This document shows, in pieces, positions 6,849-51,084 of a stretch of 56,127 nt of DNA. The notes below the pieces were generated by a model that had not been told where the DNA came from, made no database searches, and worked only from the letters and a program-made list of their open reading frames with translations. The translations under genes were made by a program, and so were the position numbers. Source of the stretch: Pelagibacteraceae bacterium AG-414-M23 (lineage in GTDB: Bacteria > Pseudomonadota > Alphaproteobacteria > Pelagibacterales > Pelagibacteraceae); NCBI GenBank assembly GCA_003214525.1, contig QCLN01000008.1, positions 1 to 56,127 on the forward strand. Reading direction: 5' to 3'. How positions within the stretch are numbered: the first letter of the stretch is position 1; each line of letters starts with the position of its first letter.

Positions 6849-6914
6849 AAAAATTAATAAATCTTAAAAAAATCCATAATGCAAATTTTATAGATGTGTG
6901 ATACAATTATACTT

Positions 6915-6964
6915 AGATAGTCCTACTAAGCCATTTTTAGCTCCCGGTTATTTTAGGACTATCT
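6915..6964 (+). promoter_or_regulatory. leader hairpin before the LysE gene (unidentified structured RNA or operator)
   Basis: An 11-bp perfect inverted repeat (arms 6915-6925 and 6954-6964) encloses 28 nt. Inside it a shorter helix can form between TAA(G)CC (6927-6932) and GGTTA (6946-6950), leaving a 13-nt terminal loop. The second arm ends 8 nt before the likely ATG at 6973. There is no T-run, so it is not an intrinsic terminator. The position fits a translational cis-regulator or a transcription-factor site. I could not match it to a known riboswitch class. Confidence 0.5.
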
Positions 6965-6972
6965 GCAGAAAA

Positions 6973-24691: not shown

Positions 24692-26385
24692 TTTTTTAAT
24701 CTATGTTTAAAACTATCTCTTCTAAAACTGTATAGTGCTTTTGGATCTACATCAACATCAATGACTACAGGTTTATTTATTTTTAGAGCTTCTTTAACTG
24801 CTTGGTTTATTTCTGAAACTTTTTTAACCTTAAAACCTCTAGCACCATATAGCTCTGCAACTTTATCAAAAGGTGGACTACTAATATCAGCTCCCAAGTA
24901 TCTTTTTCCATAAAAATCTTTTTGATAAGCTTTTTCAGCTCCCCAACTTCTATTATTCATTACTATAGTTATTGTATTAATCTTATACTCAACAGCCGTA
25001 CTTAATTCTGAAATTGTCATTCCAAAACCTCCGTCTCCCATAAGGCTAATTACCTTTTTGTTAGGTTTTGCAATCTTTACACCCAAACCACATGCAAAAG
25101 AAAAACCAACTAAACCAAAGTCTAATGGAGTAAATAAAGATGGAGGATCATAATATTCAAGAGCATCTGTAGCTTGTAAACAAAGAGTACCCGCATCTAA
25201 AGTTATTGCAGAGTTTTTAGGAAGTACTTTTCTTAATTGTTTAAACAAACTATTAGGTTGTATAGGAAAATTTTTCTGTTCAAATTTATCTCTGTTGATC
25301 AAAAACTTTTTTCTTTCATTTAAATAGTTATTGGTCCATTTTTTTATATCAAGAGTAATATTTTGCTTCTTAATTTCTTTGTATAATTGGTCAGTTATTG
25401 TGGCAGCGTCTCCATAAATTCCTACTGCTACAGGAAAGTATCTTCCTATCATTCTTTTTTCCAATTCAACTTGTATGATTTTTGCTTTTTTATTTATATT
25501 TTCGTAAGAATAAAAAGTTGAATTAAATCCCAGCCTTGTTCCAAGAGCAATTATAACGCTTGCCTCTTTAACTAATTTGGATGCAACTGGATTGCCTCTT
25601 GGACCCATTTGTCCAGCATTTAGTTTATGATTGAATGGTATAGCATCTCCATGACCAGCTGCAGTTACTATTGGAACGTTTAACAATTCTGCCAATTTAA
25701 CTACATTTTTATATTTTGATGTATATTTAATTCCACCACCAGCAATAATAACAGTCTTGTTTGAATTATTGATAATTTTTACAGCTTTTTTTATATAATT
25801 AGATTTTGCTTTAGTTGAGTTTTGATTATCAAAAGATTGACTTTTTTCATTGATTTTAAAAATTCCTTTATCTGCCAAAATATTTCTTGGTAAATTAATA
25901 CATACAGGTCCCCTTCTGGGCGACATTGCTAAGTTAAAAGCATCGCTGAAAATTTTTGGAATTTTTTTAAAATTTTTTATTGTCCAAGTTTTTTTTGTTA
26001 CCGGTTTAAATAAAGATAGTTGATCAAGACCTTGAAAAGCATCTTCCATTTTATCTTTTGTAGAATACGAACCTGCAATTGAAACAACTGGAGAAAAAGC
26101 TGCCTTCGCTTGTGCAAGACCAGTCACTAAATTTGTAGCACCAGGACCATTTTGTCCAGCAAGTATTATACCTGGTTGATTAGATGCTCTTGCATATCCA
26201 TCCGCCATGTGTGTACCAGTTCTTTCATCACGAACACCAATAAATTTTATATTTTTTTCATGATAAAGAGCGTCAAACATTTCCATTGTAGCGGAGCCAA
26301 TTAAACCAAAAACATGTTTAACTTTTTCTTTTTTTAAGGATTTAATTGCGGCTTGGCCACCAGTTAGGCTCTTTTCCTTGATCAC
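24688..26385 (-). CDS. thiamine-diphosphate-dependent enzyme (acetolactate synthase/benzoylformate decarboxylase-like)
   Basis: A 565-aa three-domain ThDP enzyme with a GTG start that overlaps the LLM gene stop (GTGA). The activating Glu lies in GVRDERTGTHMADGYARAS (about residue 53). The Mg/ThDP motif begins at MGDGGFGMTISEL and ends near MNNRSWG. Length is standard. Catabolic members cleave or decarboxylate 2-oxo acids to an aldehyde, which would suit the downstream aldehyde dehydrogenase. There is no small regulatory IlvH-like subunit beside it, so biosynthetic acetolactate synthesis is unlikely. The substrate is unassigned. Confidence 0.82.
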   Translation of the reverse strand: MIKEKSLTGGQAAIKSLKKEKVKHVFGLIGSATMEMFDALYHEKNIKFIGVRDERTGTHMADGYARASNQPGIILAGQNGPGATNLVTGLAQAKAAFSPVVSIAGSYSTKDKMEDAFQGLDQLSLFKPVTKKTWTIKNFKKIPKIFSDAFNLAMSPRRGPVCINLPRNILADKGIFKINEKSQSFDNQNSTKAKSNYIKKAVKIINNSNKTVIIAGGGIKYTSKYKNVVKLAELLNVPIVTAAGHGDAIPFNHKLNAGQMGPRGNPVASKLVKEASVIIALGTRLGFNSTFYSYENINKKAKIIQVELEKRMIGRYFPVAVGIYGDAATITDQLYKEIKKQNITLDIKKWTNNYLNERKKFLINRDKFEQKNFPIQPNSLFKQLRKVLPKNSAITLDAGTLCLQATDALEYYDPPSLFTPLDFGLVGFSFACGLGVKIAKPNKKVISLMGDGGFGMTISELSTAVEYKINTITIVMNNRSWGAEKAYQKDFYGKRYLGADISSPPFDKVAELYGARGFKVKKVSEINQAVKEALKINKPVVIDVDVDPKALYSFRRDSFKHRLKK

Positions 26386-27551
26386 GAAACTTTTTTTACT
26401 TCAGTATTTAAATCATCTTTGAAGTGAGGCATTACTTTTTCAGTGAACATTTTGATGCTTTTCATGTAATCTTGATGTTTAACTCCAGGAAAATTGGACC
26501 ATACTTGTAAATTTTGTAAATTTAATTCTGATTTAAGTTCATGGATCTTGTCTACTACATACTCAGGTGTTCCAAATAACATGTTACGTTTATGAAGAAA
26601 ATCATAGCTTAGTAAATCAAGTTTTCCTTTAGTTACAGGCAATTCTTCACCTGGGTCCATGTGATTGCCAAGTCCTCTCCAATGACACACCCATCTCATA
26701 TAATTTACCATATGTTCGCCAGCTTTTTCTTTAGCTTCTTCCATACTGTCAGCAACAAACATATCTCTTACTAATGATATACCTTCTCCCATTGGAACAT
26801 TTCTTTTTTCAGCTTCAGATTTTGCATTTTTAAATGCTTCAAATTTAATTTTTAAAGCTTTAACAGTAGGTATCCACATTATAATATTCAAACCTTGTGT
26901 TGCAGCCCATTCAATAGATCTAATTCCATCGACTACTTGGTGAATAGCAGGATAAGGTTTTTGGTAAGGTTTTGGTAAAACACTTATGTTTTCCATAACA
27001 TTTGTTTCAATATTAACCAAATCTTTATTTGGTGGACTCATATCATGCTGCCAAACATAATCAGGAGCAGGATATGTATAAAACTCACCTTTATGATTAA
27101 AAAATTTTTCTTTCCAGGATTTTTTTAAAATTGTTAGCGTTTCTTCAAACAATCTAAAATTTTTTGCTTGGTCTTTCATATCTGCTTCTTTATTTAAATT
27201 TATTGCTTCTCTTCCATAGATTCCTCTTCCTATTCCAACTTCAACTCTACCTTTTGATAATTGATCAAGAAGAGCAATATCTTCAGCCATTCTAATTGGA
27301 TTATGAAAAGTAATTACATTACAAGCTTGACCTATTCTAATATTTTTTGTTCTAGCTGCAGCATCAACTCCCATCATTAATGGATTAGTTAAAGATTCCA
27401 TTCCTTCATGATTAAAATGATGTTCTGTATACCAGATTGAATTCCATTTATTCTGATCACAATATTCTGTAATCTCTCTAGTTTCGTCTAAAAGTTTATC
27501 GTAAGGTTTGTGTGTCCAATTTGTTGTATTACAAAAATAACCAAATTTCAT
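26382..27551 (-). CDS. LLM-class (luciferase-like) flavin-dependent monooxygenase
   Basis: A 389-aa TIM-barrel flavoenzyme of the bacterial luciferase family. N-terminal MKFGYFCNTTNW, the WYTEHHFNHEGM segment near residues 41-52 and LSKGRVEVGIGRG near 95-107 are family landmarks. Such enzymes use FMNH2 and O2 to oxidise or cleave substrates; no flavin reductase is in the operon, so reduced flavin must come from elsewhere. It is the first gene of a six-gene overlapping operon and has the strongest Shine-Dalgarno of the cluster (AAGGAGG). Confidence 0.85.
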   Translation of the reverse strand: MKFGYFCNTTNWTHKPYDKLLDETREITEYCDQNKWNSIWYTEHHFNHEGMESLTNPLMMGVDAAARTKNIRIGQACNVITFHNPIRMAEDIALLDQLSKGRVEVGIGRGIYGREAINLNKEADMKDQAKNFRLFEETLTILKKSWKEKFFNHKGEFYTYPAPDYVWQHDMSPPNKDLVNIETNVMENISVLPKPYQKPYPAIHQVVDGIRSIEWAATQGLNIIMWIPTVKALKIKFEAFKNAKSEAEKRNVPMGEGISLVRDMFVADSMEEAKEKAGEHMVNYMRWVCHWRGLGNHMDPGEELPVTKGKLDLLSYDFLHKRNMLFGTPEYVVDKIHELKSELNLQNLQVWSNFPGVKHQDYMKSIKMFTEKVMPHFKDDLNTEVKKVS

Positions 27552-27687: not shown

Positions 27688-28431
27688 ATGGAAACAAAAA
27701 AAATACCACCAAAATATTTAAAGGATTTAAATCCTAAAATAGGACTAATTGCACTTGCTAGCGATTATATGATTGAGAAAGATTTTATAAGTGTAATCAA
27801 AGATAAGAAAATTGATTTTTTTGTAAATAGAATTGAAACATTTAATCCTTTGACAGCAGAAAATCTTATAAAAATGTCAGAAAAAATTACTAAAGTTACA
27901 AAAGATATACTTCCTGATGAAAAAATAGATTGTGTCGCATATGGATGTACTTCCGGTACAATTGCAGCTGGATATAGTTCTATTGAAGAAAAAATCAAAA
28001 AAGCAAAACCAAGTACAAATGTAACCACACCTAGCACAGCAGCAGTGAAAGCTTTAAAAAAATTAAATGTTAAAAAAATATATTTATTCACACCATATCC
28101 TAAAAAATTAAATGATGAAGTTATTGAATTTTTTAAAAAAGAAGGATTTGAAATAACTTCAAATTCTTATTTTGATATTGCTTCTGATATTGATATTGGA
28201 AAAGTTGATCCAGAATATCTATATGAAACTTTATCAAGCATTAACTTAGATGATGCTGATGCTATGTTTATTTCATGCACTGCACTACCGGCTTTATCAA
28301 TAATTGATAGATTAGAAAAAAAACTAGGAAAAATTGTTTTATCAAGTAACCAGGCTTTAATATGGGAAACTTTAGAAAAGATTGGAATGAATAAGTCTGT
28401 TGTAGGATTTGGTAAATTATTTTCAAACTAA
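27688..28431 (+). CDS. EutA-like Asp/Glu racemase superfamily protein (maleate isomerase/arylmalonate decarboxylase type)
   Basis: A 247-aa protein of the Asp/Glu racemase superfamily. Two active-site Cys are visible, in VAYGCTSGTIAAG (about residue 93) and FISCTALPA (about 194), and the C-terminal segment SSNQALIWETL is typical. The segment VNRIETFNPLT also fits the maleate isomerase/EutA group. EutA is encoded with ectoine hydrolase EutD and is linked to hydroxyectoine use in rhizobia; here too the next gene is EutD/DoeA-like, 1 nt downstream. A maleate cis-trans isomerase is the main alternative. Confidence 0.75.
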   Translation: METKKIPPKYLKDLNPKIGLIALASDYMIEKDFISVIKDKKIDFFVNRIETFNPLTAENLIKMSEKITKVTKDILPDEKIDCVAYGCTSGTIAAGYSSIEEKIKKAKPSTNVTTPSTAAVKALKKLNVKKIYLFTPYPKKLNDEVIEFFKKEGFEITSNSYFDIASDIDIGKVDPEYLYETLSSINLDDADAMFISCTALPALSIIDRLEKKLGKIVLSSNQALIWETLEKIGMNKSVVGFGKLFSN

Positions 28432-28432
28432 T

Positions 28433-29602
28433 ATGCTATTTACTAAAGAAGAATACAAAGGAAGACTAAATAAAGTTAAAAAATTTATGCAGAATAAAGG
28501 CATCGATCTTTTGATTTCACAAGATACATCAAATATTAATTATCTTACCGGATATGATGCTTGGTCATTCTATTATGCACAATGTGCAATAGTTCATGTT
28601 GATGCTGATGAACCATTGTTATTTGTAAGAGCACAAGATGCAGGCGCAGCATATATAAATTGTTATATAAAACATGAAAACATAATTGCTTACGATGAAA
28701 AATATATTCATACATGGCCCACACATCCTTACGATGCAATTGTAGATTTAATAAAAAAAAGAAAATGGGAAAATTTTAAAATTGGTTTAGAAATGGATAC
28801 CCATTACTTTACTGCATACTCTTATAAGAAATTATTAGATGGTTTGCCTGATGCTAAATTAATAGATAGCGAAAGATTAGTTAATTGGGTTAGAGTAGTT
28901 AAGTCAGACGCAGAAATAGATTTAATGAAAAAAGCAAGTGTCATAACTGAAATAGGTATGAAAAAAGCATTTGAATGTATTAAACCTGGCGTTAGGCAAA
29001 ATGATGCAGTTTCAGAAATAACTGGTGCTTTAATTAGAGGAACAAAAGATTTCGGTGGAGAATACTCATCAATAGTTCCTCTTTTACCAACGGGAAAAGG
29101 TACATCAGCGTCTCATTTAACCTGGAGTGATGCCAAATTCGTTGAAGGAGAGGCAACTATAATTGAAGTTTCTGGAGTTTATAAAAGATATCATTGTCCA
29201 ATGGCAAGAACAGTGCTTCTTGGTAAACCAGATCAAAAAAAAATAGATACAATGAAAAAAACCATAGAAGCTCTACATGCGGGAATTGATGTTACAAAAC
29301 CAGGAAATACCGCAGATGATGTTGCCCAAGCATTTTGGAAAGTATTAGATAAATATGGAATAGAAAAAAAATCTAGAACCGGATACTCAATAGGAATTGG
29401 ATATCCTCCAGATTGGGGCGAACATACATTAAATATTCTCAAAGGTGACAAAACAGTGCTAGAAAAAAATGTTTGTTTTCACATGATTGCTGTAATGCAA
29501 TTTGGGAACTGGGGAGTAGAGGCCTCAGAGTCAATAAGAGTTACCGATACTGGATCAGAGTTATTTTGTAATCTTTCAAAAGAACTGCATATAAAAAGCT
29601 AA
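28433..29602 (+). CDS. M24-family EutD/DoeA-like hydrolase (ectoine hydrolase type)
   Basis: A 389-aa creatinase/prolidase-fold enzyme. A TTG at 28409 extends the frame into the preceding gene; ATG 28433 is chosen because the N-terminus MLFTKEEYKGRL aligns with ectoine hydrolases. Strong family stretches are INYLTGYDAWSFYYAQC, HLTWSDAKFVEGEA, YKRYHCPMARTVLLGKP and IGYPPDWGEHTL. DoeA/EutD opens the ectoine ring. Xaa-Pro peptidase and creatinase are the fold relatives, but the residues above favour the ectoine-hydrolase group. It follows the EutA-like gene and precedes potA by 46 nt. The other ectoine genes (doeB/eutE, eutB, eutC) are not adjacent. Confidence 0.78.
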   Translation: MLFTKEEYKGRLNKVKKFMQNKGIDLLISQDTSNINYLTGYDAWSFYYAQCAIVHVDADEPLLFVRAQDAGAAYINCYIKHENIIAYDEKYIHTWPTHPYDAIVDLIKKRKWENFKIGLEMDTHYFTAYSYKKLLDGLPDAKLIDSERLVNWVRVVKSDAEIDLMKKASVITEIGMKKAFECIKPGVRQNDAVSEITGALIRGTKDFGGEYSSIVPLLPTGKGTSASHLTWSDAKFVEGEATIIEVSGVYKRYHCPMARTVLLGKPDQKKIDTMKKTIEALHAGIDVTKPGNTADDVAQAFWKVLDKYGIEKKSRTGYSIGIGYPPDWGEHTLNILKGDKTVLEKNVCFHMIAVMQFGNWGVEASESIRVTDTGSELFCNLSKELHIKS

Positions 29603-29620
29603 AATTAACTATTGAATATT
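29601..29620 (+). repeat. direct repeat copy 1, upstream of potA
   Basis: AAAATTAACTATTGAATATT begins on the stop codon of the M24 gene and lies 29 nt before potA. A copy lacking one T occurs at 30768-30786, upstream of potD. It may be a shared operator; AT richness means chance is not excluded. Confidence 0.4.
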
Positions 29621-29648
29621 ATCTTCACAAATGTTTTAAATCCTCCCT

Positions 29649-30737
29649 ATGCCTAATAACAAAGAATTCGTTAAATTTGCAAAAGTTGATAAAAGTTATG
29701 ACGGAAAAGTTCTTGTCGTAAAAGATCTAAACCTAGATATAGCTGAAGGTGAGTTTATCACAATGCTTGGACCTTCTGGTTCGGGAAAAACTACTTGTTT
29801 AATGATGTTAGCTGGTTTTGAAACACCAACAAACGGTGAAATTTATTTAGATGGAAATCCAATTTCAAACATACCTCCACACAAAAGAGGTATTGGAATG
29901 GTTTTTCAAAACTATGCATTATTTCCTCATATGACAGTTTATGAAAATTTAGCATTTCCATTAAGGGTAAGAAAAATTCCAAAAGATGAAATTGATAAAA
30001 AAGTTGATAAAGCATTATCAATGGTTTCGTTAGCTGGTTACGAGTCAAGAATGCCAGGCCAACTTTCAGGAGGACAACAACAAAGAGTTGCCGTTGCTAG
30101 AGCGTTAGTTTTTGATCCTTCAGTTGTACTAATGGATGAACCATTGGGAGCGTTAGATAAAAATTTAAGAGAAAGCATGCAATATGAAATTAAACATATT
30201 CATGAAAGTATAGGAGTCACAGTTGTTTATGTTACTCACGATCAAGGAGAAGCTCTTACCATGTCAAATCGAATAGCAGTATTTAATGATGGAAAAGTTC
30301 AACAATTATCTAGCCCTGACAAACTATACGAAGAACCTGTTAATTCTTTTGTTGCGGAGTTTATAGGTGAGAATAATACTTTTAGTGGCCAAGTCACAGA
30401 TATTTCTGGAGGCAAGTGTAAAGTAAAATTAGACTCTGGATCAGAAATAATGTCAAATCCGATTAGAGTAAATTCAAAAGGTGAAAAAACTATTGTTTCT
30501 TTAAGACCAGAGAGAGCAATTATAAATCCAGAAAATAACATGGAAAATAAGCATAAAGGGAAAATAGAAGAAGTAATTTATCACGGTGACCACACTAGAG
30601 TTAGATTAAATTTGTTAGGAAATAAAGAATTTATACTAAAAGTTCCAAATAGTTCAGCTAGAATGGATATAAAAGTTGGAAACGAAATCGCAGTAGGTTG
30701 GGACAGCCGAGATGCAAGAGCTTTAGACCCAAAGTAA
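29649..30737 (+). CDS. potA: polyamine-type ABC transporter ATPase PotA
   Basis: A 362-aa ATPase: Walker A GPSGSGKTT, Q-loop in MVFQNYALFPHMTV, signature LSGGQQQRVAVARAL, Walker B VVLMDEPLGALD and switch His in VTHDQGEALTM. A TOBE-type domain follows at about residues 285-355. Standard length for PotA. It energises PotB/PotC and binding protein PotD. It follows the EutA/EutD-like genes on the same strand, so the transported compound may be an ectoine- or polyamine-like cation rather than spermidine itself. Confidence 0.9.
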   Translation: MPNNKEFVKFAKVDKSYDGKVLVVKDLNLDIAEGEFITMLGPSGSGKTTCLMMLAGFETPTNGEIYLDGNPISNIPPHKRGIGMVFQNYALFPHMTVYENLAFPLRVRKIPKDEIDKKVDKALSMVSLAGYESRMPGQLSGGQQQRVAVARALVFDPSVVLMDEPLGALDKNLRESMQYEIKHIHESIGVTVVYVTHDQGEALTMSNRIAVFNDGKVQQLSSPDKLYEEPVNSFVAEFIGENNTFSGQVTDISGGKCKVKLDSGSEIMSNPIRVNSKGEKTIVSLRPERAIINPENNMENKHKGKIEEVIYHGDHTRVRLNLLGNKEFILKVPNSSARMDIKVGNEIAVGWDSRDARALDPK

Positions 30738-30767
30738 ACTTATCATTAAAAACGTTATATTATAAGC

Positions 30768-30786
30768 AAAATTAACATTGAATATT
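30768..30786 (+). repeat. direct repeat copy 2, upstream of potD
   Basis: Matches the copy at 29601-29620 except for one missing T. It lies 13 nt upstream of the predicted potD -35 box, a usual place for an activator site. Confidence 0.4.
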
Positions 30787-30799
30787 CTTAAATGAGCTG

Positions 30800-30828
30800 T
30801 TGACTCCATTTTTTATCCTTGTTGTAAT
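30800..30828 (+). promoter_or_regulatory. predicted sigma-70 promoter of potD
   Basis: TTGACT (30800-30805) and TGTAAT (30823-30828) are separated by 17 nt, and the start codon is 36 nt downstream. A palindrome CGTTTAAACG (30847-30856) adjoins the GGAGG ribosome binding site (30856-30860) and could be an operator or fold over the site. This gives potD a transcript separate from potA. Confidence 0.5.
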
Positions 30829-30864
30829 CCTTTTTTTAAAAAAAAACGTTTAAACGGAGGATAA

Positions 30865-31980
30865 ATGAGAAAATTAAGTAAATTATTACTTACCTTGACT
30901 TTTGCTCTTTCTTTAACTTCATCAGCATTTGCAGTAGTTGTTGCATCATGGGGTGGAGCTTATACAGAGTCTCAAAAGCTTGGATATGGTGATCCTACTG
31001 CAAAAGCTTTAGGTATATCTATCGATTGGGTAGACTACTCAGGCGGATTATCAGAAATTAAAGCACAAAAAGAAGCTGGTGCTATTGTATGGGATATAAT
31101 CGACGTATTTGCATTTGATACAATAAATGGATGTGACGAAGGTATATTTGTTGAATTTGATTTCGACAAAGACTTTCCTGCAGCTCCAGACGGTACACCT
31201 GCAAGTGAAGACTTCTTCACTGCAATGCCTTCTAAATGTGCTGTAGGAAACATTTTATATTCTTGGAACTACGCTTATAACAGCGACAATGTTAAAGGTA
31301 CTCCAAAGACTATAAAAGATTTCTTTAACACTAAAAAATTTCCTGGAAAAAGAGCTATCTATAAAAGCGCTCTAACTAACTTAGAGATCGCTTTAGCAGC
31401 TACTGGAACAAAACCTGGAAAAGGTGGAGCAAATATCTATAAAAAATTGAATACTGAAAAAGGTGTTCAAAAAGCATTAGATACTATTAAAAAACTTTGT
31501 ACTGATCCAAAAGGCGGATGTGTATTTTGGTCAGCAGGTGCTCAACCACCAGAACTATTAATGAGCGGTGAAGTTGTTATGGCAACTGGTTGGAATGGAA
31601 GATTTTTCAACGCTACAGTTGGCGAAGGTGCTCCAATCGTTCAAGTATGGGACGCTCAAGGTCTTGACTATGAATATTTTGCACTAGTTAAAGGTGGACC
31701 AAACGAAGCTGATGCTATGAAAGCTCTTGCTATGATGACTAACACAGAAATGTTAGCTGGAAGCGCTAAGTATATAGCTTATGCTCCTTGGAGAAAATCT
31801 TCAATAGCTGTTATGGAAGCAGGTGAGCCATGGTATAAAGATGGTAAAACAAATATGGTACCACATATGCCTACTGCGCCAAAAAACACAAAAAATTACT
31901 TCCTAGTAGATCCATTCTTTTGGGCTGATAACGGCACTGAGCTTGGTGAAAAATGGGAAGCTATGAAAGCAGGTCTATAA
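30865..31980 (+). CDS. potD: polyamine-type ABC substrate-binding protein PotD
   Basis: A 371-aa periplasmic type-II binding protein. The signal peptide runs to about residue 23 (cleavage after SAFA). The mature N-terminus VVVASWGGAYTESQKLGYGD is typical of the extracellular solute-binding protein 1/8 families of polyamine importers. It is rich in Asp/Glu and Trp/Tyr, as expected for a cation-binding cleft. It contains four Cys (about residues 90, 107, 212 and 219), possibly two disulfides. The promoter upstream and terminator downstream let it be made in excess of the permease. The ligand is not readable from sequence. Confidence 0.87.
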   Translation: MRKLSKLLLTLTFALSLTSSAFAVVVASWGGAYTESQKLGYGDPTAKALGISIDWVDYSGGLSEIKAQKEAGAIVWDIIDVFAFDTINGCDEGIFVEFDFDKDFPAAPDGTPASEDFFTAMPSKCAVGNILYSWNYAYNSDNVKGTPKTIKDFFNTKKFPGKRAIYKSALTNLEIALAATGTKPGKGGANIYKKLNTEKGVQKALDTIKKLCTDPKGGCVFWSAGAQPPELLMSGEVVMATGWNGRFFNATVGEGAPIVQVWDAQGLDYEYFALVKGGPNEADAMKALAMMTNTEMLAGSAKYIAYAPWRKSSIAVMEAGEPWYKDGKTNMVPHMPTAPKNTKNYFLVDPFFWADNGTELGEKWEAMKAGL

Positions 31981-32017
31981 TTTAAGTTTTAAAGACTAAA
32001 ATTATATATTATATTTA

Positions 32018-32047
32018 GGGCGGTTATTAAATAACCGCCCTTTTTTT
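32018..32047 (+). terminator. intrinsic terminator/attenuator between potD and potB
   Basis: GGGCGGTTAT/ATAACCGCCC, 10-bp perfect stem (32018-32027 with 32031-32040), 3-nt loop and seven T. The T-run touches the potB start codon at 32048. Permease expression must come from read-through or a start within the T-run. Confidence 0.9.
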
Positions 32048-33301
32048 ATGAGCAGTGAAACACAAAAAATTTTAACAACTGACGGAATTCCTTTAGAGAT
32101 TAGCCTAAAGAAGGCTGAGAAAAAAAATAAAATTAAAGCTTTTCTTCTAGTAGCCCCATTATTACTTTTTATAATAATTACTTATATTTTTCCTATAGGT
32201 GAAATGTTTACAAGAAGTATAGACGATAGAATGGTTACAAATATGTTACCTAAAACATTTAAAGCTATGGAAACATGGGATGGAAAAGAACTTCCACCAG
32301 AAGAAGTTTTTGCTGCTTTTTTATCTGATTATAGAGCTTTAGCTGAAAAAAAAGAACATGGAAAACTAGGCCAAAGATTAAACAAAGAGAAGAACGGATT
32401 TAATACAATCCTCAAAAAATTATGGAGAAAAATGAAAAAATTTGAGGATGGTAATACTAAAGAACAAATAATGGCAGTTCATAAACGATTTAGAGATGTA
32501 AAATATTGGCAAGCAATAAAAAGGACAGCTCCTCCGTATACTATGGGAAAATATTTAAAAGGTATGGACATGTATTATGATGAGGATGGAAAAGTCGTTC
32601 AAGTTGAGGAGGACAGAAGAATACATAGAATACTTTGGCTGAGAACTTTAGAAATAGCTGTTGTTGTCACTATTCTTTGTTTTTTAATGGGTTATCCAAT
32701 TGCACATTTGCTTGCGACTCTTCCAATGAAATACAGTAATTTATTAATGATATGTGTTCTTTTGCCATTCTGGACCTCTTTACTTGTAAGAACTGCAAGT
32801 TGGATGATTTTGTTACAACAACAAGGAATTGTAAATGACTTTTTCGTCATGATCGGATTAGTAGCTGACGATAATAGACCAGAGATGATGTATAATAAAA
32901 CCGGTACCTATATTGCAATGACGCAAATTCTTTTACCTTTTATGGTATTGCCTTTGTACAGTGTTATGAAAACAATATCTCCTAGTTTAATGAGAGCGGG
33001 AAAATCCTTAGGAGGCACTCCATTCGTTGCTTTTTGGAAAGTTTACTTTCCATTAACAATACCTGGTATTGGAGCAGGCTGTTTATTAGTCTTTATACTT
33101 GCAATTGGATATTATATTACCCCAGCTTTAGTTGGTGGCGCATCAGGAACATTGATTAGTAACCAAATAGCTTACCATATGAAGGAAACGCTAGACTGGA
33201 GCTTTGCATCGGCCATGGGATTAATGCTATTAACTGGAGTCCTTGTCGTTTACTGGATTTATAACAAACTTGTTGGAATTGATAATATTAAATTAGGATA
33301 A
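32048..33301 (+). CDS. potB: polyamine-type ABC permease PotB, long form
   Basis: A 417-aa inner-membrane permease. The first helix (about residues 30-52) is followed by about 140 mostly charged residues (about 55-195). The permease core follows with five to six helices, and the EAA-type coupling loop contains SLMRAGKSLGGTPFVAFWKV (about 313-332). E. coli PotB is about 275 aa, so the insert is extra periplasmic sequence, seen also in other alphaproteobacterial homologues. Its ATG directly follows the terminator T-run without a Shine-Dalgarno. It pairs with PotC. Confidence 0.88.
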   Translation: MSSETQKILTTDGIPLEISLKKAEKKNKIKAFLLVAPLLLFIIITYIFPIGEMFTRSIDDRMVTNMLPKTFKAMETWDGKELPPEEVFAAFLSDYRALAEKKEHGKLGQRLNKEKNGFNTILKKLWRKMKKFEDGNTKEQIMAVHKRFRDVKYWQAIKRTAPPYTMGKYLKGMDMYYDEDGKVVQVEEDRRIHRILWLRTLEIAVVVTILCFLMGYPIAHLLATLPMKYSNLLMICVLLPFWTSLLVRTASWMILLQQQGIVNDFFVMIGLVADDNRPEMMYNKTGTYIAMTQILLPFMVLPLYSVMKTISPSLMRAGKSLGGTPFVAFWKVYFPLTIPGIGAGCLLVFILAIGYYITPALVGGASGTLISNQIAYHMKETLDWSFASAMGLMLLTGVLVVYWIYNKLVGIDNIKLG

Positions 33302-33303
33302 AT

Positions 33304-34158
33304 ATGGCTTTACCCAAATATACAGAAACTCGTTATAGAATTTGGCACTATTTGTATTTAACAATTTGTGGTTTTGTATTTTTCTTTTTAATAGCGCCGT
33401 TGTTTGTAATTTTTCCACTTTCATTTAACGCTGAGGAATTCTTAGTTTTTTCAGATGGAATGAAAAGACTTGATCCTGATGCATTTTCTTTAAGGTGGTA
33501 TCATGACATGGTTTATGGAACAAAAAATCCCTGGGGACTTGCTGCAAAAAACAGTTTTATAATTGCAATATTTGCAACAATAGGAGCGGTAATACTTGGT
33601 ACAGTAGCTGCACTAGGATTAAGTAGCAGACATATGCCATTCAAAGGTTTAATAATGGCAACTTTAATTTCACCAATGATTGTTCCACTTATTATTTCTG
33701 GAGTTGCCATCTTCTTTTTTATAGCAAAAATTGGATTAGCAGCTACACACTTAGGAATTATTATTGCTCATATAATTCTAGGAACTCCATTTGTAGTAAT
33801 AACTGTTACTGCCACTTTGTCAGGTTTTGACCATAGTGTTACTAGAGCAGCATCTAGCCTAGGAAGTGATCCAGTTAACACATTTATGAAAATAACATTA
33901 CCATTGATTTTGCCAGGAGTTATATCCGGGGCTTTATTTGCATTTGTCACATCTTTTGATGAGGTAGTAGTAGTTTTATTTTTAGCCGGTTTAGATAATA
34001 CAACGATACCTATTCAAATGTGGACGGGTTTAAGAGAACAATTAAGCCCAACTATACTTGCTGTTGCTACTTGCTTAATAATTCTTTCAACATTAATACT
34101 TGTTACCGCGGAACTTTTAAGAAGAAGGTCTGAGCGTATAAGAGGTATTAACAGATAA
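33304..34158 (+). CDS. potC: polyamine-type ABC permease PotC
   Basis: A 284-aa permease with about six helices. The coupling loop contains VTRAASSLGSDPVNTFMKIT (about residues 179-198) and the final helix is followed by a basic tail RRRSERIRG. Standard PotC length. Two nucleotides after potB; it forms the heterodimeric pore with it. Confidence 0.9.
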   Translation: MALPKYTETRYRIWHYLYLTICGFVFFFLIAPLFVIFPLSFNAEEFLVFSDGMKRLDPDAFSLRWYHDMVYGTKNPWGLAAKNSFIIAIFATIGAVILGTVAALGLSSRHMPFKGLIMATLISPMIVPLIISGVAIFFFIAKIGLAATHLGIIIAHIILGTPFVVITVTATLSGFDHSVTRAASSLGSDPVNTFMKITLPLILPGVISGALFAFVTSFDEVVVVLFLAGLDNTTIPIQMWTGLREQLSPTILAVATCLIILSTLILVTAELLRRRSERIRGINR

Positions 34159-34180: not shown

Positions 34181-36403
34181 ATGGAAATTAAAAAAGTTGT
34201 AGTAATAGGATCAGGAACAATGGGAAGTGGTATTGCGGCTCATTTATGTAATGCTAATATTCCAGTAACATTGTTAGATTTAACTACAGAAATTAGTCAA
34301 AAAGCAAAAGATAGAATTCAAAAATCTAGACCACCACTTTTAATTGATAAAACAAAAATAGACAATATAAGAGTCGGAAATATTAATGATGATTTTGATG
34401 TAGTAAAAGATGCAGATTGGGTAGTTGAAGCTGTTGTTGAAAGAATAGACATTAAACATAATATTTATGAAAAAATTTTTAAATTTAGAAAATCAGGAGC
34501 AATTGTTTCCTCAAATACATCGTCAATACCTATAAAAATTTTATCTGAAAAATTATCAGATACAGAGAAAAGAGATTTTTGTATAACACACTTTTTTAAC
34601 CCTGTAAGGTACATGGGGTTACTAGAGATTGTAAAAAATGAAAATAATGATCTAGGTAAGATAAATTCTCTAAAAAAATTTTGTGAGCTAGAACTTGGTA
34701 AGGGCGCAATAATTTGCAATGATACTCCTGGATTTTTAGGAAACAGAATAGGTGTTTTTGCTATGCAAGTAGCGATGACAGAAGCGTTTAGGTTGAAATT
34801 GTCTATCGAAGAAGCCGATGCTGTTTTTGGAAGACCAATGGGCATTCCAAAAACAGGAGTATTCGGACTTTATGATCTTATAGGAATAGATTTAATGGCT
34901 GATGTTTTAAAAAGTTTTATAAAAGAGCTTCCAAAAAATGATCCATTTCAAGTAGTAGCAAAAGAAATCCCCTTAATTACAAAATTAATTAATACAGGGT
35001 ACACAGGAAGAAAAGGAAAAGGTGGATTTTATAGAATGAATAAGCAAAATAATCAGAAAATTTTAGAGGCAATCAACCTTGAGTCAGAAGAATATTCCGC
35101 AACAAAGAAAATTGACCTTGGTATTGAAACTGTAAATTTAAACGTATTGATCAATAGAAATGATAAATACGGTGAATATTCATGGTCGGTAATTTCAAAA
35201 ATTATAAAATATGCATCTTCTTTAGTTCCAGGTATTACAGATAAATTTAATGATATTGATGAAGCAATGAGACTTGGTTTTAACTGGGCAATGGGACCTT
35301 TTGAAATGTTAAAAGCAATTGGTGTTAAAAATTTCTTTAAACGTATTGATGCTTTTGAAAATAATAAATTCTTAGAAAATTTATCAAAAACAAAAAATGA
35401 AAATTTTTATGGGGAAAGGCAAAAGTATACAGATATTGAGACACTAGGAAAAATAAAACCAAAAGCTATAAAAGTTGATAAAAATAAATCGGCTGAAATT
35501 TATAGATTTAAAAATTTTAATATTGTTGAATTTACAACTAAAGCTTGTGCTTTAAATTATGATTCTATGGATGCATTGAAAAATGCAACAGACAAACCTT
35601 TAATAATTATTAATGAAAGTATGCAATTTTCTGCAGGTGTAAATTTAACTTACACAATGGATTTTGCAGACAAAGGTGATTTTAAATCAATTGAAAAATT
35701 TATTAAATATTTTCAAGAAACTTGCAAACATTTAAAATATTCAGATCATCCTGTAATATCTGCTCCATCAGGTTTAGTTTTAGGAGGGGGCGAAGAGGTG
35801 GCTATTCAATCAAATTTTGTTGTATCTCACACAAATATTGTGATGGGATTGGTTGAAACGGGAGTAGGTCTAGTACCAGCTGGTGGAGGATGCAAAGAAG
35901 TTTTATGGAGATGGTCACAAACACCTGAATCTAAAAAAGATCCAGACTATGCTCCTCTAGAAGTATTTAATATTATTGGTTATGCGAAAACAGCAACCTC
36001 TACTGTTGAGGCTGTACCACTTAAGTTTTTAAGACCAGAAGATAAAAAGGTAATGAATAGAAATAGTTTATTTGACGTTTCAAGAAAATTGATTGAAGAA
36101 AATAAAGATTTTATTCCTCCAAAAGAATGTAAATTTAATTTATCTGGAAAGCCTCTTAAAGAAAAAATGATAAAAATTTTGGAAAAATTATATAATGAAA
36201 AAGTTATTTTAGACCATGGTATGGAAGTTGGCAAAGAATTAGCTAATGTTTTAAGTGGCGGAAATACAAGTATAGATAAAACATTAACAGAAGATGATTT
36301 GTATAAATTAGAGCTCGAGTCATTTATGAGACTTATTGAAACAAAAGAAACTCAAGCTAGAATCAAACACACACTTGCAACAGGCAAACCATTAGTTAAC
36401 TAA
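34181..36403 (+). CDS. FadN-type bifunctional 3-hydroxyacyl-CoA dehydrogenase/enoyl-CoA hydratase
   Basis: A 740-aa fusion. N-terminal Rossmann domain (VVVIGSGTMGSGIAAHLC, residues 5-22), HCDH C-terminal domains (about 180-280 and 340-400), then a crotonase-like domain (about 460-640) with PSGLVLGGGEEVAIQSNFVV and ETGVGLVPAGGGCKE. The order dehydrogenase-then-hydratase is the FadN arrangement, inverse to E. coli FadB. It catalyses two steps of acyl-CoA beta-oxidation. It is 22 nt downstream of potC, so perhaps in the same transcript and handling an acyl-CoA derived from the imported compound; no thiolase is beside it. Its 3' end overlaps the convergent cyclophilin gene by 12 nt. Confidence 0.85.
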   Translation: MEIKKVVVIGSGTMGSGIAAHLCNANIPVTLLDLTTEISQKAKDRIQKSRPPLLIDKTKIDNIRVGNINDDFDVVKDADWVVEAVVERIDIKHNIYEKIFKFRKSGAIVSSNTSSIPIKILSEKLSDTEKRDFCITHFFNPVRYMGLLEIVKNENNDLGKINSLKKFCELELGKGAIICNDTPGFLGNRIGVFAMQVAMTEAFRLKLSIEEADAVFGRPMGIPKTGVFGLYDLIGIDLMADVLKSFIKELPKNDPFQVVAKEIPLITKLINTGYTGRKGKGGFYRMNKQNNQKILEAINLESEEYSATKKIDLGIETVNLNVLINRNDKYGEYSWSVISKIIKYASSLVPGITDKFNDIDEAMRLGFNWAMGPFEMLKAIGVKNFFKRIDAFENNKFLENLSKTKNENFYGERQKYTDIETLGKIKPKAIKVDKNKSAEIYRFKNFNIVEFTTKACALNYDSMDALKNATDKPLIIINESMQFSAGVNLTYTMDFADKGDFKSIEKFIKYFQETCKHLKYSDHPVISAPSGLVLGGGEEVAIQSNFVVSHTNIVMGLVETGVGLVPAGGGCKEVLWRWSQTPESKKDPDYAPLEVFNIIGYAKTATSTVEAVPLKFLRPEDKKVMNRNSLFDVSRKLIEENKDFIPPKECKFNLSGKPLKEKMIKILEKLYNEKVILDHGMEVGKELANVLSGGNTSIDKTLTEDDLYKLELESFMRLIETKETQARIKHTLATGKPLVN

Positions 36404-37792: not shown

Positions 37793-38758
37793 ATGAAAAA
37801 ACAGAGAAATAAAAACCCTATACAGCCAGTTATTGGAACCAAAGTTCCGAGGTACGCTGGACCGAATACATTTGCAAGGTTGCCTGAGCTAAGAGATGTT
37901 GAGAGTTGCGATGTAGCTATAGTAGGAATTCCTTTTGATGCAGGAACAAGTTATAGACCGGGAGCGAGATTTGGACCTCAAAGTATTAGACAAGCTTCAA
38001 GACATTTAAGAACTAATTATCATCCAGATTACGACGCAGAACCTTTCAAAGTTCAACAAGTTGCTGATGCAGGAGATATAGCTTGTAATCCATTTAATAT
38101 TAATGAAGCAATTAAACAAATTGAAAAAGGTGCAACAGAATTATTAGAAAAAGTTGGAGGAATTATTAGCATGGGAGGTGATCACACGATTGCTTTTCCA
38201 TTGCTTAGATCAATAAATAAAATAAATAAAGGACCGGTTGCATTAGTTCATTTTGATGCGCACCTAGATACTTGGGACACTTATTTTGGCGCACCTTACA
38301 CACACGGCACACCATTTAGAAGAGCTAGAGAAGAAAATCTATTTTTAGATAATGCCTCAATGCACGTTGGTATAAGAGGCCCTCTCTATAGCAAAGACGA
38401 TCTAAAAAACGATGCAAGTTTTGGTTTTAAAATAATTCATTGCGATGAATTTCAAACCGAGGGTATTGATAAAATAGTTAAAAGAATTAAAGAAAGAGTG
38501 GGTGAAAATCCTTTATATCTTTCAATTGATATAGATGTATTGGATCCTGCCCACGCACCAGGAACAGGCACCCCTGAAATCGCAGGAATGACAACAAGAG
38601 AAATTGTAAATGTTTTAAGAGGACTTTCAGGCATGAATCTAATATCTGCAGATGTTGTTGAAGTTGCACCAGCATATGACCATGCAGAATTGACATCACT
38701 AGCTGCGGCAACAATAATTTATGAATTAACAAATTTATTTGCTAACAAAAAAAATTAA
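37793..38758 (+). CDS. speB: agmatinase-family ureohydrolase SpeB
   Basis: A 321-aa arginase/agmatinase-fold enzyme. All manganese-binding motifs are present: MGGDHTIAFP, HFDAHLDTWD and SIDIDVLDPAHAPGTGTPE. It hydrolyses a guanidino compound to urea and an amine; agmatine, guanidinobutyrate or guanidinopropionate are the usual substrates and are not distinguishable here. It is followed 14 nt later by an aldehyde dehydrogenase, which fits polyamine or guanidino-aldehyde catabolism with the upstream pot importer. Confidence 0.88.
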   Translation: MKKQRNKNPIQPVIGTKVPRYAGPNTFARLPELRDVESCDVAIVGIPFDAGTSYRPGARFGPQSIRQASRHLRTNYHPDYDAEPFKVQQVADAGDIACNPFNINEAIKQIEKGATELLEKVGGIISMGGDHTIAFPLLRSINKINKGPVALVHFDAHLDTWDTYFGAPYTHGTPFRRAREENLFLDNASMHVGIRGPLYSKDDLKNDASFGFKIIHCDEFQTEGIDKIVKRIKERVGENPLYLSIDIDVLDPAHAPGTGTPEIAGMTTREIVNVLRGLSGMNLISADVVEVAPAYDHAELTSLAAATIIYELTNLFANKKN

Positions 38759-41819: not shown

Positions 41820-41856
41820 ATCCTGTCACGTTTAACACGTGGCAGGATTTTTTTTT
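41820..41856 (+). terminator. intrinsic terminator after the NCS1 permease
   Basis: 12-bp stem (41820-41831 with 41837-41848, one G-U pair, core CCTGTCACG) and nine T (41848-41856). It abuts the stop codon of the convergent argE-like gene. Confidence 0.9.
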
Positions 41857-43033
41857 ACATTATCGATTTATCTTTTACTCCATCAAGAAACGATAAACAT
41901 TTTTTGATTTCATTAAGTTCAATAAATTCATCAATTTTATGCGCTTGATCAATTGATCCTGGGCCACAAACTACAGTGCTAATTCCTAATTCTTGAAAGA
42001 GACCAGCTTCAGTTCCAAACGAAACTACTTCTCGAGAATTATCCCCGGTTATGCTTGTAACAAATTCACAGGCCTCAGAATCATTTATTCTATTAAAACC
42101 AATAACTTCACCTATGGTTTCCTTTCGAATATTTGAATTAGGAAAAACTTTTTTCATTTCTGGTAATAGAGTTTCATTTACAAATTTATCAATTTCTTTT
42201 GTAACGAAAATTGCATCTTCTTTAACTACAGGCCTAGTTTCCCATTCAACTTTACATTTGTCAGCAATAACATTATGGGCTATTCCTCCTGAAATTCCAC
42301 CAACAGACAGAGTTGAATGAGGAGGATCAAAAATGCAATCCTTAGGTCCTCTCTTTATTAATTCTTGTCTTAATTCTAAAAGCTTATTTATATATCTTGT
42401 TGAATACTCTATCGCATTTACTCCTTTATGAGGTTGAGAGCTATGTCCAGCTAAACCTTCAAAGTGAATTGTGTATTCGTTCATACCTTTGTGTGCATCT
42501 ATAATTTTCATTTTTGTTGGTTCTCCAATTATGCAAATACCTTCTTGAATATTTCTTTTTTTTAATTCTTTGATCAACAGTGGTGCACCAATACAGGCTG
42601 TTTCTTCATCAAATGTAAATGAAAAATGAATATTTCTATCTAAATTTGCAGAGGAAAGTTTTGGAACATAGGCAAGCGTACAAGCAATAAATCCCTTCAT
42701 GTCACATGAACCTCGTCCATAAAGTTTATCTCCTTTTATTGTTGCAACAAATGGATCTGTCGACCATCCTTTTGAAACCGGAACAACATCTGTGTGTCCT
42801 GATAAAATTATAGGTTTTTTCCCATTAGTTTTTTTAGCTTTTATAGTGCCAAAAAGATTTACTCTTTCTTTATTATCGTCGAAAACACGGAATGTTGAAA
42901 CTCCATTTTCTTTTAAAATAGCATCGCAATAGTCAATCAGTGGACCATTTTCTTTTCCAGATATTGTTTTAAAACCTATCAAGTCACTTAAAATCTTGAT
43001 TGATTTTTTATATAAATTGCTTTCTATACTCAT
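41855..43033 (-). CDS. argE: ArgE-type M20 deacylase (acetylornithine deacetylase family)
   Basis: A 392-aa M20 metallopeptidase-family amidohydrolase. The metal ligands lie in ILSGHTDVVPVS (His), GRGSCDMKGF (Asp), TFDEETACIGAP (Glu-Glu) and near the C-terminus in IDQAHKIDEFIE (His). The dimerisation domain (about 175-285) includes EGLAGHSSQPHKGVNAIEY. ArgE deacetylates N-acetylornithine, but relatives act on other N-acyl amino acids; the location beside nitrogen-scavenging genes leaves a catabolic role open. Confidence 0.82.
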   Translation of the reverse strand: MSIESNLYKKSIKILSDLIGFKTISGKENGPLIDYCDAILKENGVSTFRVFDDNKERVNLFGTIKAKKTNGKKPIILSGHTDVVPVSKGWSTDPFVATIKGDKLYGRGSCDMKGFIACTLAYVPKLSSANLDRNIHFSFTFDEETACIGAPLLIKELKKRNIQEGICIIGEPTKMKIIDAHKGMNEYTIHFEGLAGHSSQPHKGVNAIEYSTRYINKLLELRQELIKRGPKDCIFDPPHSTLSVGGISGGIAHNVIADKCKVEWETRPVVKEDAIFVTKEIDKFVNETLLPEMKKVFPNSNIRKETIGEVIGFNRINDSEACEFVTSITGDNSREVVSFGTEAGLFQELGISTVVCGPGSIDQAHKIDEFIELNEIKKCLSFLDGVKDKSIM

Positions 43034-49956: not shown

Positions 49957-51084
49957 TCATTTATTCAATAGTATTTGGTACAGTTCCTCATCGACATCTC
50001 CTTCACAACCCAATAATAAAACTTGAGAATTTTTATCTAAATTTAATTTTCCTTTAAGCTTATTATTATTACAAGATGCAATTAAACTAATGATACCAGG
50101 TGTGGCACATTCTCCACCAATTATTTTTTTTTCACTAAATGACGAGGTTGCCAATAGTTTTATAGTGTCTGATATTTTATCATCCGGAATTGATATACAA
50201 AAATTACAGCTATTATTAATTATTTTCCAAGGGATTGTTGAAACTTCTCCACAAGACATGCCACCCATTAAGCTTTCTTTTTTTATATCTAAGGTGACAA
50301 TTTTATTTTTTTCCACAGCTTTAAGCACACAATCCGCAGATTCAGGCTCAACAATAATTATTTTTGGAATATGTTCTAGATATCTAGCACATCCTGCAAT
50401 CATAGCGGCAGCCATACCTCCAACTCCAGCTTGTAAAAAAATATGAGAAATTTTATTTTTGTTTATTTGATCTGAAATTTCTTTCATCATTACAGCATAT
50501 CCTGCCATTGTTAGTTTGGGAACCAGCTCATATTTCTCCCAAGCAACATCTTGTATAATTTCCCATCTGTTTTTTTTTGATTGTTTGATACATTCTTTTA
50601 ATGAATTATCATAATTTCCTTTTACTCTAAAAACCTCAGCACCGAATCCTCTCATAGCTTCTGCTCTGCTTTCAGAAACAAATTCGCTAATAAAAATTTT
50701 ACAATTTAATCCTAGTCTTTTGGCTCCCCAGGCAACAGATCGTCCGTGATTTCCTGCTGTTGCTGTAGATACAGTTATATTTTTTTTACTTTGATATATT
50801 TTTTCAACAGCGTATGCTCCACCTAATGCTTTAAAAGATTTTAAATTGAATCTTTTAGACTCATCTTTGTAAAAAATTTTTTTTAAACCTAGTTCAGAAG
50901 ATAATTTATAAAGATTTTCCAAGGGTGTTGATGAATAGTTTTCCCAGTTTGAAATTACTTTGTAAGCACTATCGATTTCATTTTTTGATAAAATGCTAAA
51001 TATTTGATCACGGTCAAAATTAAAATACTTATTTTCTATGAAATTTGAATACTTCCAAGATTTGTCATTGGAAATTAAACTCAT
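49957..51084 (-). CDS. PLP-dependent lyase, diaminopropionate ammonia-lyase (YgeX)-like
   Basis: A 375-aa fold-type II PLP enzyme. The Schiff-base Lys is Lys85 in FNLKSFKALGGAYAVEK, followed by the phosphate loop TAGNHGRSVAWGAK and the glycine-rich LQAGVGGMAAAMIAG. This matches diaminopropionate ammonia-lyase (threonine-dehydratase superfamily) more than threonine synthase. It makes 2-oxo acid plus ammonia from an amino acid. It is 3 nt downstream of glnT, in the ammonium-handling cluster, so the released ammonia could be re-assimilated. Confidence 0.75.
   Translation of the reverse strand: MSLISNDKSWKYSNFIENKYFNFDRDQIFSILSKNEIDSAYKVISNWENYSSTPLENLYKLSSELGLKKIFYKDESKRFNLKSFKALGGAYAVEKIYQSKKNITVSTATAGNHGRSVAWGAKRLGLNCKIFISEFVSESRAEAMRGFGAEVFRVKGNYDNSLKECIKQSKKNRWEIIQDVAWEKYELVPKLTMAGYAVMMKEISDQINKNKISHIFLQAGVGGMAAAMIAGCARYLEHIPKIIIVEPESADCVLKAVEKNKIVTLDIKKESLMGGMSCGEVSTIPWKIINNSCNFCISIPDDKISDTIKLLATSSFSEKKIIGGECATPGIISLIASCNNNKLKGKLNLDKNSQVLLLGCEGDVDEELYQILLNK

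Follow-up and report, generated by a model that had tools for sequence, protein, structure and literature searches.

Linkage of eutA- and doeA-like genes to a GABA/opine-class importer in SAR11, a possible route for scavenging ectoine-type zwitterions

Known gene clusters for ectoine and 5-hydroxyectoine link homologues of EutA and EutD (DoeA) to an importer for the substrate. In Ruegeria pomeroyi, the cluster uehABC-eutABCDE-asnC-ssd-atf includes a tripartite ATP-independent periplasmic (TRAP) importer, and in Sinorhizobium meliloti an ATP-binding cassette (ABC) importer and the eut enzymes share one operon, ehuABCD-eutABCDE. The available part of PMC13188858 likewise pairs ectoine clusters with Ehu or TRAP (Ueh) importers, as a sequence-only reading of the DNA studied here had stated, and in some lineages with BCCT or other ones. 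The DNA studied is a 56,127-nucleotide stretch of Pelagibacteraceae bacterium AG-414-M23 (contig QCLN01000008.1), a member of SAR11, the most abundant bacterial group of the ocean, and is hereafter called the window. Six genes in the order eutA-doeA-potA-potD-potB-potC, all on one strand, span its positions 27688 to 34158 (+). The sequence-only reading had noticed the EutA/EutD-like genes ahead of potABCD, and a check of the open reading frame (ORF) coordinates bore this out for all six genes.

The block shares with the R. pomeroyi cluster the linkage of EutA and EutD homologues to an importer, but it lacks eutC and eutE, carries an ABC importer with a receptor of the gamma-aminobutyric acid (GABA)/opine class rather than a TRAP importer, and encodes divergent EutA and DoeA proteins. 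It resembles the S. meliloti operon in joining an ABC importer to eut enzymes, although Ehu belongs to another ABC family and only two of the five eut genes, eutA and eutD, have homologues in the SAR11 block. The importer itself corresponds to the SAR11 "polyamine" importer PotABCD, since the PotD of the window is ~75% identical to the solved protein 8jv1; polyamines are assigned to it in the literature, whereas the title of that structure and the relatives of the protein indicate GABA-like zwitterions. Finally, a metal-free M24 amidinohydrolase lies beside the same importer family in the creatinase-potADBC loci of other alphaproteobacteria, but the M24 enzyme of the window is 20 to 22% identical to those creatinases and belongs to the DoeA group instead. 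A link between potABCD, eutA, and doeA was not found in the available parts of the open-licence literature (PMC8437039, PMC13188858, PMC8739950, PMC5924519, PMC10130141, PMC6018831, PMC10030771). Polyamine, spermidine, and putrescine go unmentioned in three open-licence papers on ectoine, and none of the titles listed in the open-licence literature search concerns a link between ectoine and a polyamine importer.

We propose, with a probability of roughly 0.4, that SAR11 uses eutA-doeA-potADBC as an operon to scavenge a small zwitterion that has both a carboxylate group and a positively charged amidine; ectoine, 5-hydroxyectoine, or both are the most likely candidates. The sequences themselves show the gene linkage, the classes of the proteins, the replaced metal ligands, and the return of this importer near ectoine clusters in other bacteria; for the substrate, the ring opening, and the roles of EutA and ArgE, we infer the following scheme. 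The solute-binding protein (SBP) would capture the compound, with a conserved arginine holding the carboxylate and acidic residues holding the cation, and PotABC would import it. Attack of water on the amidine ring, catalyzed by the metal-free, creatinase-like M24 enzyme, would open it to an N-acyl diamino acid, and with a hydroxylated substrate EutA would invert a stereocentre. Deacylation would fall to an ArgE-type deacetylase encoded 12 kb downstream in the window's genus and to a DoeB2-like M20 enzyme adjoining doeA in a second family of the order, after which the diamino acid would pass into aspartate metabolism.

Conservation of the gene block in SAR11

Of the 130 loci found, the best 80 were used to follow the gene order; these named SAR11 loci all lie on Pelagibacteraceae or Pelagibacterales contigs, with M24 gene identities from 98% downwards (genomes and loci are cited below by G and L numbers where needed). 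The eutA gene lies immediately 5′ of doeA in 79 of the 80 loci, the exception (L092) ending at a contig edge, and potA follows doeA within four genes in all 80. The potD gene is visible in 71 loci, and the remaining 9 are cut off at potA by contig ends. Genes upstream of eutA differ among the loci, whereas eutA-doeA-pot is constant. This order persists even where the transporter does not: 20 of the 71 loci carry a divergent potADBC cassette, with a PotD 40 to 43% identical to that of the window, still behind eutA-doeA, and the other 51 carry the window type. In the divergent-cassette loci (L062, L074, and others), two extra genes often stand between doeA and potA, which in L062 encode a protein of 208 aa that matches no Pfam family and a tetratricopeptide repeat (TPR) protein of 190 aa.

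Within the window, the intergenic gaps from eutA to potC measure 1, 46, 127, 67, and 2 bp. The doeA-like gene starts with ATG at 28433; the start assigned mechanically to its ORF is a TTG upstream, at 28409. Across the window's genus, doeA was found in 21 of 25 genomes, that of the window included. In 19 of these 21, potD lies on the same contig, 1.2 to 1.8 kb away, and in one (G020) on another contig. The joint absence of doeA and potD from the incomplete SAR11 genomes G007, G014, G019, and G023 was not used as evidence, because adjacent genes would be lost from an assembly together. The linkage of eutA-doeA to the pot genes is thus real, SAR11-wide, and beyond chance, which confirms the observation from which the sequence-only reading had started; its interpretation is partly supported by the results below.

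Classes of the binding protein and the M24 enzyme

Among PDB sequences, the SBP matched 8jv1 best (592 bits), followed by MotA (mannopine), GABA sensors, Atu4243, and agropine receptors. None of the nine matches at E 0.001 is a classical PotD or PotF, and no NCBIfam model matched the SBP in the family scan. The nearest solved relatives (8jv1, MotA, Atu4243, and AgtB) place it in the GABA/opine class, although the depositors' names of 8jv1 and Atu4243 say polyamine. The title of 8jv1 reads "Structure of the SAR11 PotD in complex with GABA"; the PDB lists held one chain per sequence, and ligand and title are taken from 8jv1, without 8jv2, 8jv3, and 8jv4. A structure predicted from the lone PotD sequence was discarded (mean predicted local distance difference test [pLDDT] score of 35), and one predicted with a 20-sequence SAR11 alignment (mean pLDDT of 58.6) was used solely to rank PDB relatives. 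Its top relative was the one already first by sequence search, and structures of spermidine/putrescine receptors, at 13 to 18% identity, ranked behind the GABA and opine receptors. An arginine in an NGR motif and an aspartate in a WD motif, which we take to be ligand contacts in the GABA receptor, are retained in at least 50 of 52 members of the importer family. The ligand therefore probably has a carboxylate and a cation, a description that ectoine, GABA, and creatine match and spermidine does not. Judged by its sequence relatives, the PotD of the window is a GABA/opine-class protein rather than a classical polyamine receptor. The label "polyamine-type" given to the importer in the sequence-only reading thus holds for potA, potB, and potC by best match and is misleading for the binding protein. 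Membership in the importer families of known ectoine clusters was not found either: PotA matched EhuA weakly (166.9 against a cut-off of 345.4), and the SAR11-order genomes G000, G012, and G025 contain no relative of UehP.

PotABCD could instead simply be the polyamine importer of SAR11, with eutA-doeA as neighbors that share no substrate with it. An agmatinase-family gene and an aldehyde dehydrogenase gene downstream of the pot genes in the window would suit such a role, and the available part of PMC8437039 reports uptake of five polyamines by SAR11 cells and suggests potABCD as the carrier. Those uptake data, as far as the available part goes, do not pinpoint PotD, however. The composition of the nine matches, the low rank of the spermidine/putrescine receptors, the retained NGR arginine, and the survival of the eutA-doeA linkage through a transporter swap all argue against a polyamine importer, and we regard it as improbable.

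The M24 protein was aligned with the Pyrococcus prolidase 1pv9, whose five metal ligands we take to be D209, D220, H284, E313, and E327. The corresponding residues are E245, P256, I322, I352, and S365, with low confidence in the alignment near I322. Because the metal-ligand positions are replaced, the protein is very probably no peptidase; an Xaa-Pro peptidase (M24B) was accordingly rejected as its function and is strongly disfavored, despite a Pfam M24 match and weak PepQ matches. For comparison with DoeA, 130 columns at least 95% conserved in the 23 DoeA proteins that pass the family cut-off were examined in 81 SAR11 proteins. In total, 79 columns are kept, H228, E245, Y253, and R259 among them, and the SAR11 protein thus combines substituted metal ligands with retained DoeA core residues. 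In a tree of 66 rows (57 different), true DoeA proteins are separated with a support of 100/100 from a clade II that holds the SAR11 proteins, the protein of G192, and assorted paralogues. The M24 enzyme therefore lies outside the clade of cut-off-passing DoeA, in its sister clade, and by phylogeny is no orthologue of the known EutD. As for EutA, C87 and C197, the two cysteines of a racemase/isomerase site, are present in 80/80 aligned homologues. The enzyme names proposed from the sequence are those that the family scans return, EutA and EutD/DoeA, but both proteins score under the curated cut-offs and the M24 enzyme is a sister of EutD rather than EutD itself. A 2024 paper in Nature on SAR11 binding proteins and a 2020 paper in the Journal of Biological Chemistry on EutD may describe the ligand or the active site already.

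One clade-II protein outside SAR11 occurs in an ectoine-like setting. In G054, the clade-II doeA gene sits with a gene for EhuR/EnuR (581 against a cut-off of 480), an EutB gene above one model and under another (426.5 against 413; 390.6 against 413.35), an EutC gene likewise above one of two models (467.4 against 408; 439.2 against 471.65), and, further along, a borderline EutE gene (401.6 against 402.7).

Recurrence of the importer beside ectoine and creatinase genes

In total, 386 alphaproteobacterial genomes were scanned, of which 56 have a DoeA-family match and 23 a match above the cut-off. PotD was sought in 47 non-SAR11 genomes of the 53 with a DoeA-family match; the six omitted (G064, G101, G181, G188, G190, G349) have weak DoeA matches only. 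Co-location was estimated in the 36 non-SAR11 genomes that have a DoeA-family gene of at least 390 bits together with a PotD orthologue at E 1e-50 or below. Extra DoeA paralogues of G148, G330, and G403 and the genome G245 are absent from this list, and none of them has a PotD at the limit. The two genes lie within 10 kb of each other in 7 of the 36 genomes (G116, G225, G314, G305, G186, G199, G192), against 0.24 expected, ~29-fold over a chance model that is uniform along the genome. Under that model, and with limits (10 kb, 390 bits, E 1e-50) picked after the hits were seen, the probability of five or more co-locations is ~4e-6. The seven genomes represent five families, with G116, G225, and G314 belonging to one genus. 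In G194 the two genes are 23 kb apart, and this genome was counted as a miss. DoeA is above the family cut-off in five of the seven but not in G186 (607) or G192 (470).

The arrangement is clearest in G199, where, on one contig, potADBC adjoins the atf side of atf-ssd-asnC-eutE-doeA-eutC-eutB, a cluster whose proteins exceed their cut-offs (EutB, 505.9/413.35; EutC, 500.5/471.65; DoeA, 738/613; EutE, 557/402.7). This genome has no UehP orthologue (best match, 29%), whereas in G363, a genome of the same genus, the cluster is flanked on its eutB side by a TRAP importer, and PotD matches do not exceed 29%. In G305, potADBC stands between doeA and eutE; in G116, G225, and G314, doeA directly follows potC; and in G186, doeA-argE, an aminotransferase gene, and potADBC are neighbors, with a creatinase homologue between. 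A search for UehP, which did not extend to EhuB, gave no match in G305, G116, G225, G314, or G192 and a match of 26 to 28% in G186. The DoeA of G192 groups as sister to the SAR11 proteins and its PotD as sister to those of the divergent SAR11 cassette, and homologues of eutA, eutB, and eutC lie 10 to 13 kb upstream of doeA. This eut run, whose Eut scores are under the ectoine cut-offs, looks as if it belonged to a parallel pathway. The full run in G192 (L214/L248) comprises an amidinotransferase homologue, eutA, eutB, eutC, cysteine-synthase-like, DoeB2-like, M24, and trans-3-hydroxyproline dehydratase-like genes, followed by a sarcosine-oxidase-alpha-type gene and then the clade-II doeA.

Because the PotD proteins found near ectoine clusters do not form a single clade, the association of the importer with DoeA arose or survived several times. 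It could be argued that the SAR11 block reflects a frozen gene order only and that its recurrences elsewhere are a general clustering of genes for nitrogen compounds. Gene order in SAR11 is generally conserved, and doeA is missing from the 10-kb surroundings of 29 of the 36 importer loci elsewhere. The excess of co-location over the chance model and the constancy of eutA-doeA-pot beside variable upstream genes speak against a frozen order, which we consider quite improbable. Of the two options offered by the sequence-only reading, an importer for an ectoine-like cyclic amidine or enzymes acting on a different ring, the first thus gains independent support from the co-location with DoeA-family genes in five other families.

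The same importer family also occurs beside creatinase genes. Creatinase resembles ectoine hydrolase in being a metal-free M24 enzyme, and both cleave amidine-type C-N bonds of carboxylated zwitterions; this common chemistry suggests a single importer class for carboxylated amidine and guanidine zwitterions, which also allows a guanidino-acid reading for SAR11. In that case, GABA and guanidino acids, creatine for example, would enter through the importer, and an amidine or guanidine acid other than ectoine would be the substrate of EutA and the clade-II M24 enzyme. Besides the GABA named in the title of 8jv1, several gene neighborhoods fit this idea. A creatinase homologue (at least 50% identical to a tested one) lies near potADBC in 7 of the 36 loci, as a raw count in the stretches examined; one of the seven was compared with the PDB and scored 680 bits to the creatine amidinohydrolase 7yto. 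Creatinase, potADBC, and doeA are contiguous in G225 and G314, and also in G116 save for one 114-aa ORF. An arginine:glycine amidinotransferase homologue adjoins, and precedes, the clade-II doeA of G033, a genome of the second family, a relative of it (66%) heads the eutA-eutB-eutC genes of G192, and the sarcosine-oxidase-alpha-type gene of G192 (1162 bits against a cut-off of 1164) lies two genes before doeA. On the other side, the complete SAR11 genome G012 carries, at a separate place (L256, C1:262000-269000), a creatinase homologue that is truncated by the end of the stretch (60% identity to the tested one over 268 aa), with a homologue of the tested amidinotransferase (73%) and a further M24 gene as neighbors. 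Creatine thus appears to have its own enzyme in G012, for which reason creatinase is disfavored as the role of the SAR11 M24 gene; in G000 (88% complete), which has three M24 genes, the two others carry no creatinase label. The company of clade-II doeA in G054, with genes for EhuR, EutB, and EutC, also argues for ectoine. On balance, we consider a GABA- and guanidino-type substrate somewhat unlikely, placing it after ectoine or hydroxyectoine and ahead of polyamines.

The remaining pathway and its neighborhood

The candidate deacetylase of the window is ArgE-like (Table 1). In the genus, a complete relative with at least 72% identity occurs in 11 of 16 members searched, the window included, and a fragment in one; the distance to doeA is 10.6 to 23.8 kb in the 8 genomes where both are on the same contig, and the genes lie on separate contigs in 3. 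ArgJ is present in 25/26 relatives, and for this reason ArgE looks spare in these genomes. ArgE-type enzymes directly follow clade-I DoeA in G281, G141, and G186 (DoeA scores of 702, 600, and 607 bits), where they occupy the position of the deacetylase, and in two f104 genomes a single run joins the genes for agmatinase, clade-II DoeA, ArgE, and a transporter of the EamA-like type. In the second family of the order, searches of 10 genomes for ArgE gave 9 matches near 30% and one without a match, and a DoeB2-like gene is present in 16/16 genomes. A DoeB2-like M20 hydrolase gene and a Rieske oxygenase gene precede doeA in G025, and Rieske, EamA-like, ammonia-lyase-like, M20, and eutA genes precede it in G038. 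The window's own genome (G000; L254, C4:28000-42000) also contains a Rieske-like gene (match at 27%) together with an M24 gene for a 411-aa protein that presumably resembles the dimethylsulfoniopropionate (DMSP) lyase DddP.

Other genes of the window are possible partners. The agmatinase-family gene has homologues (42 to 44% identical) adjoining clade-II doeA in the two f104 genomes. The enzyme at 49957 to 51084 scores 62 to 72 bits on EutB models (cut-off, 413) and is by score a diaminopropionate ammonia-lyase; its homologues adjoin potADBC, accompanied by EutA and M24 genes in G401 and by an M24 gene in G327. A trio of EutA-like, further M24, and diaminopropionate ammonia-lyase-like genes recurs in L213, L198, L233, L234, and L219, adjoining potADBC in four loci and lying directly before doeA-eutE in L198. 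The FadB-like gene starting 22 bp past potC follows potC in many SAR11 loci and is replaced by different genes in others, and its connection to the module is uncertain. Upstream of eutA, the opposite strand of the window (21873 to 27551, −) carries genes for a luciferase-like monooxygenase, a thiamine pyrophosphate (TPP) enzyme, an AA_synth protein, an alpha/beta hydrolase, and what is presumably an aldehyde dehydrogenase-like protein, a divergently oriented set found in some SAR11 loci and replaced in others. The sole Rfam match of the window is a small RNA of the rhtB family at 6898 to 6981 (+; 71.9 bits against a gathering score of 55).

Table 1. Coordinates of the eutA-doeA-potADBC genes and of possible partner genes in the window
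Feature	Position	Strand	Supporting match
EutA-like protein, 247 aa, arylmalonate decarboxylase/maleate isomerase superfamily	27688..28431	+	TIGR02990, 208.6 bits; Pfam Amdase
M24-family DoeA/EutD-like hydrolase, 389 aa, clade II	28433..29602	+	TIGR02993, 463 bits; 354 bits to ectoine hydrolase 6twk
PotA-type ABC ATPase	29649..30737	+	TIGR01187, 380.2 bits, above cut-off 355.6
"PotD" solute-binding protein, GABA/opine class	30865..31980	+	592 bits to 8jv1
PotB-type permease	32048..33301	+	Pfam BPD_transp_1; top NCBIfam PotB, 167 bits, under cut-off 348
PotC-type permease	33304..34158	+	Pfam BPD_transp_1; top NCBIfam PotC, 141 bits, under cut-off 326
FadB-like 3-hydroxyacyl-CoA dehydrogenase/enoyl-CoA hydratase	34181..36403	+	
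Agmatinase-family ureohydrolase, possible partner	37793..38758	+	TIGR01230, 235.2, above cut-off 174.3
ArgE-type N-acetylornithine deacetylase, candidate for the absent deacetylase	41855..43033	−	TIGR01892, 357.8, above cut-off 297.7
Diaminopropionate ammonia-lyase-like pyridoxal phosphate (PLP) enzyme, possible distant partner	49957..51084	−	PRK08206, 396, above cut-off 276

Several observations weigh against an ectoine-scavenging operon. GABA is the ligand in the solved structure of the SAR11 PotD, polyamines are taken up by SAR11 cells, creatinase homologues lie near the importer in 7/36 loci, and in 29 of the 36 genomes no PotD orthologue falls inside the 10-kb limit around doeA. The enzyme scores are low: the EutA-like protein reaches 208.6 bits against the TIGR02990 cut-off of 318, and the M24 protein 463 bits against the equivalog cut-off of 613 for TIGR02993. 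The DoeA proteins of G186, G141, and G192 and the Eut proteins of G192 are also under the cut-offs of the ectoine models. Of the 130 conserved DoeA columns, 41 have a different commonest residue in SAR11 and 10 have the same residue under laxer conservation; the changes include H49A, R75I, Y124H, K189Q, F351M, and W356Q, among which H49A, R75I, K189Q, and W356Q may line the pocket. Clade II also contains paralogues beside genes of other pathways, namely, the 5-oxoprolinase gene pxpA in G400 and, next to the second clade-II copy of G321, a gene that we recognize as gamma-glutamyltransferase-like. The linkage has exceptions as well. G004 (96% complete) has eutA-doeA and no PotD found in that genome, and a gene presumably encoding a thiolase occupies the expected potADBC position (L034). 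In the second family (16 genomes), doeA, which is 69 to 71% identical in the main genus of that family, and potD, where present, are at separate places. Finally, components of the canonical ectoine cluster are missing: EutE was found in 0/41 and EutC in 0/26 genomes of the order, in line, for these two genes, with the earlier remark that other eut genes are missing, and a DoeB2-like gene was found in 0/25 genomes of the window's genus. Only weak ArgE matches were obtained in 4 of the 16 genus members searched.

A broader proposal, which we offer tentatively, is that the SAR11 "polyamine" importer represents an unrecognized family for zwitterions of the ectoine, hydroxyectoine, and creatine type. 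It would partner metal-free M24 amidine hydrolases across alphaproteobacteria and, in SAR11, feed a divergent ectoine-type pathway of EutA, a clade-II DoeA, and a recruited ArgE. In surface seawater, the SAR11 PotD often ranks with the most abundant of the proteins detected (available part of PMC8437039), and its true substrate therefore bears on the flow of carbon and nitrogen in the ocean. If the importer does take up ectoine-class osmolytes, a flux now counted as polyamines would change its identity, and genes annotated as "potABCD" next to M24 genes elsewhere in the alphaproteobacteria would require a corrected annotation.

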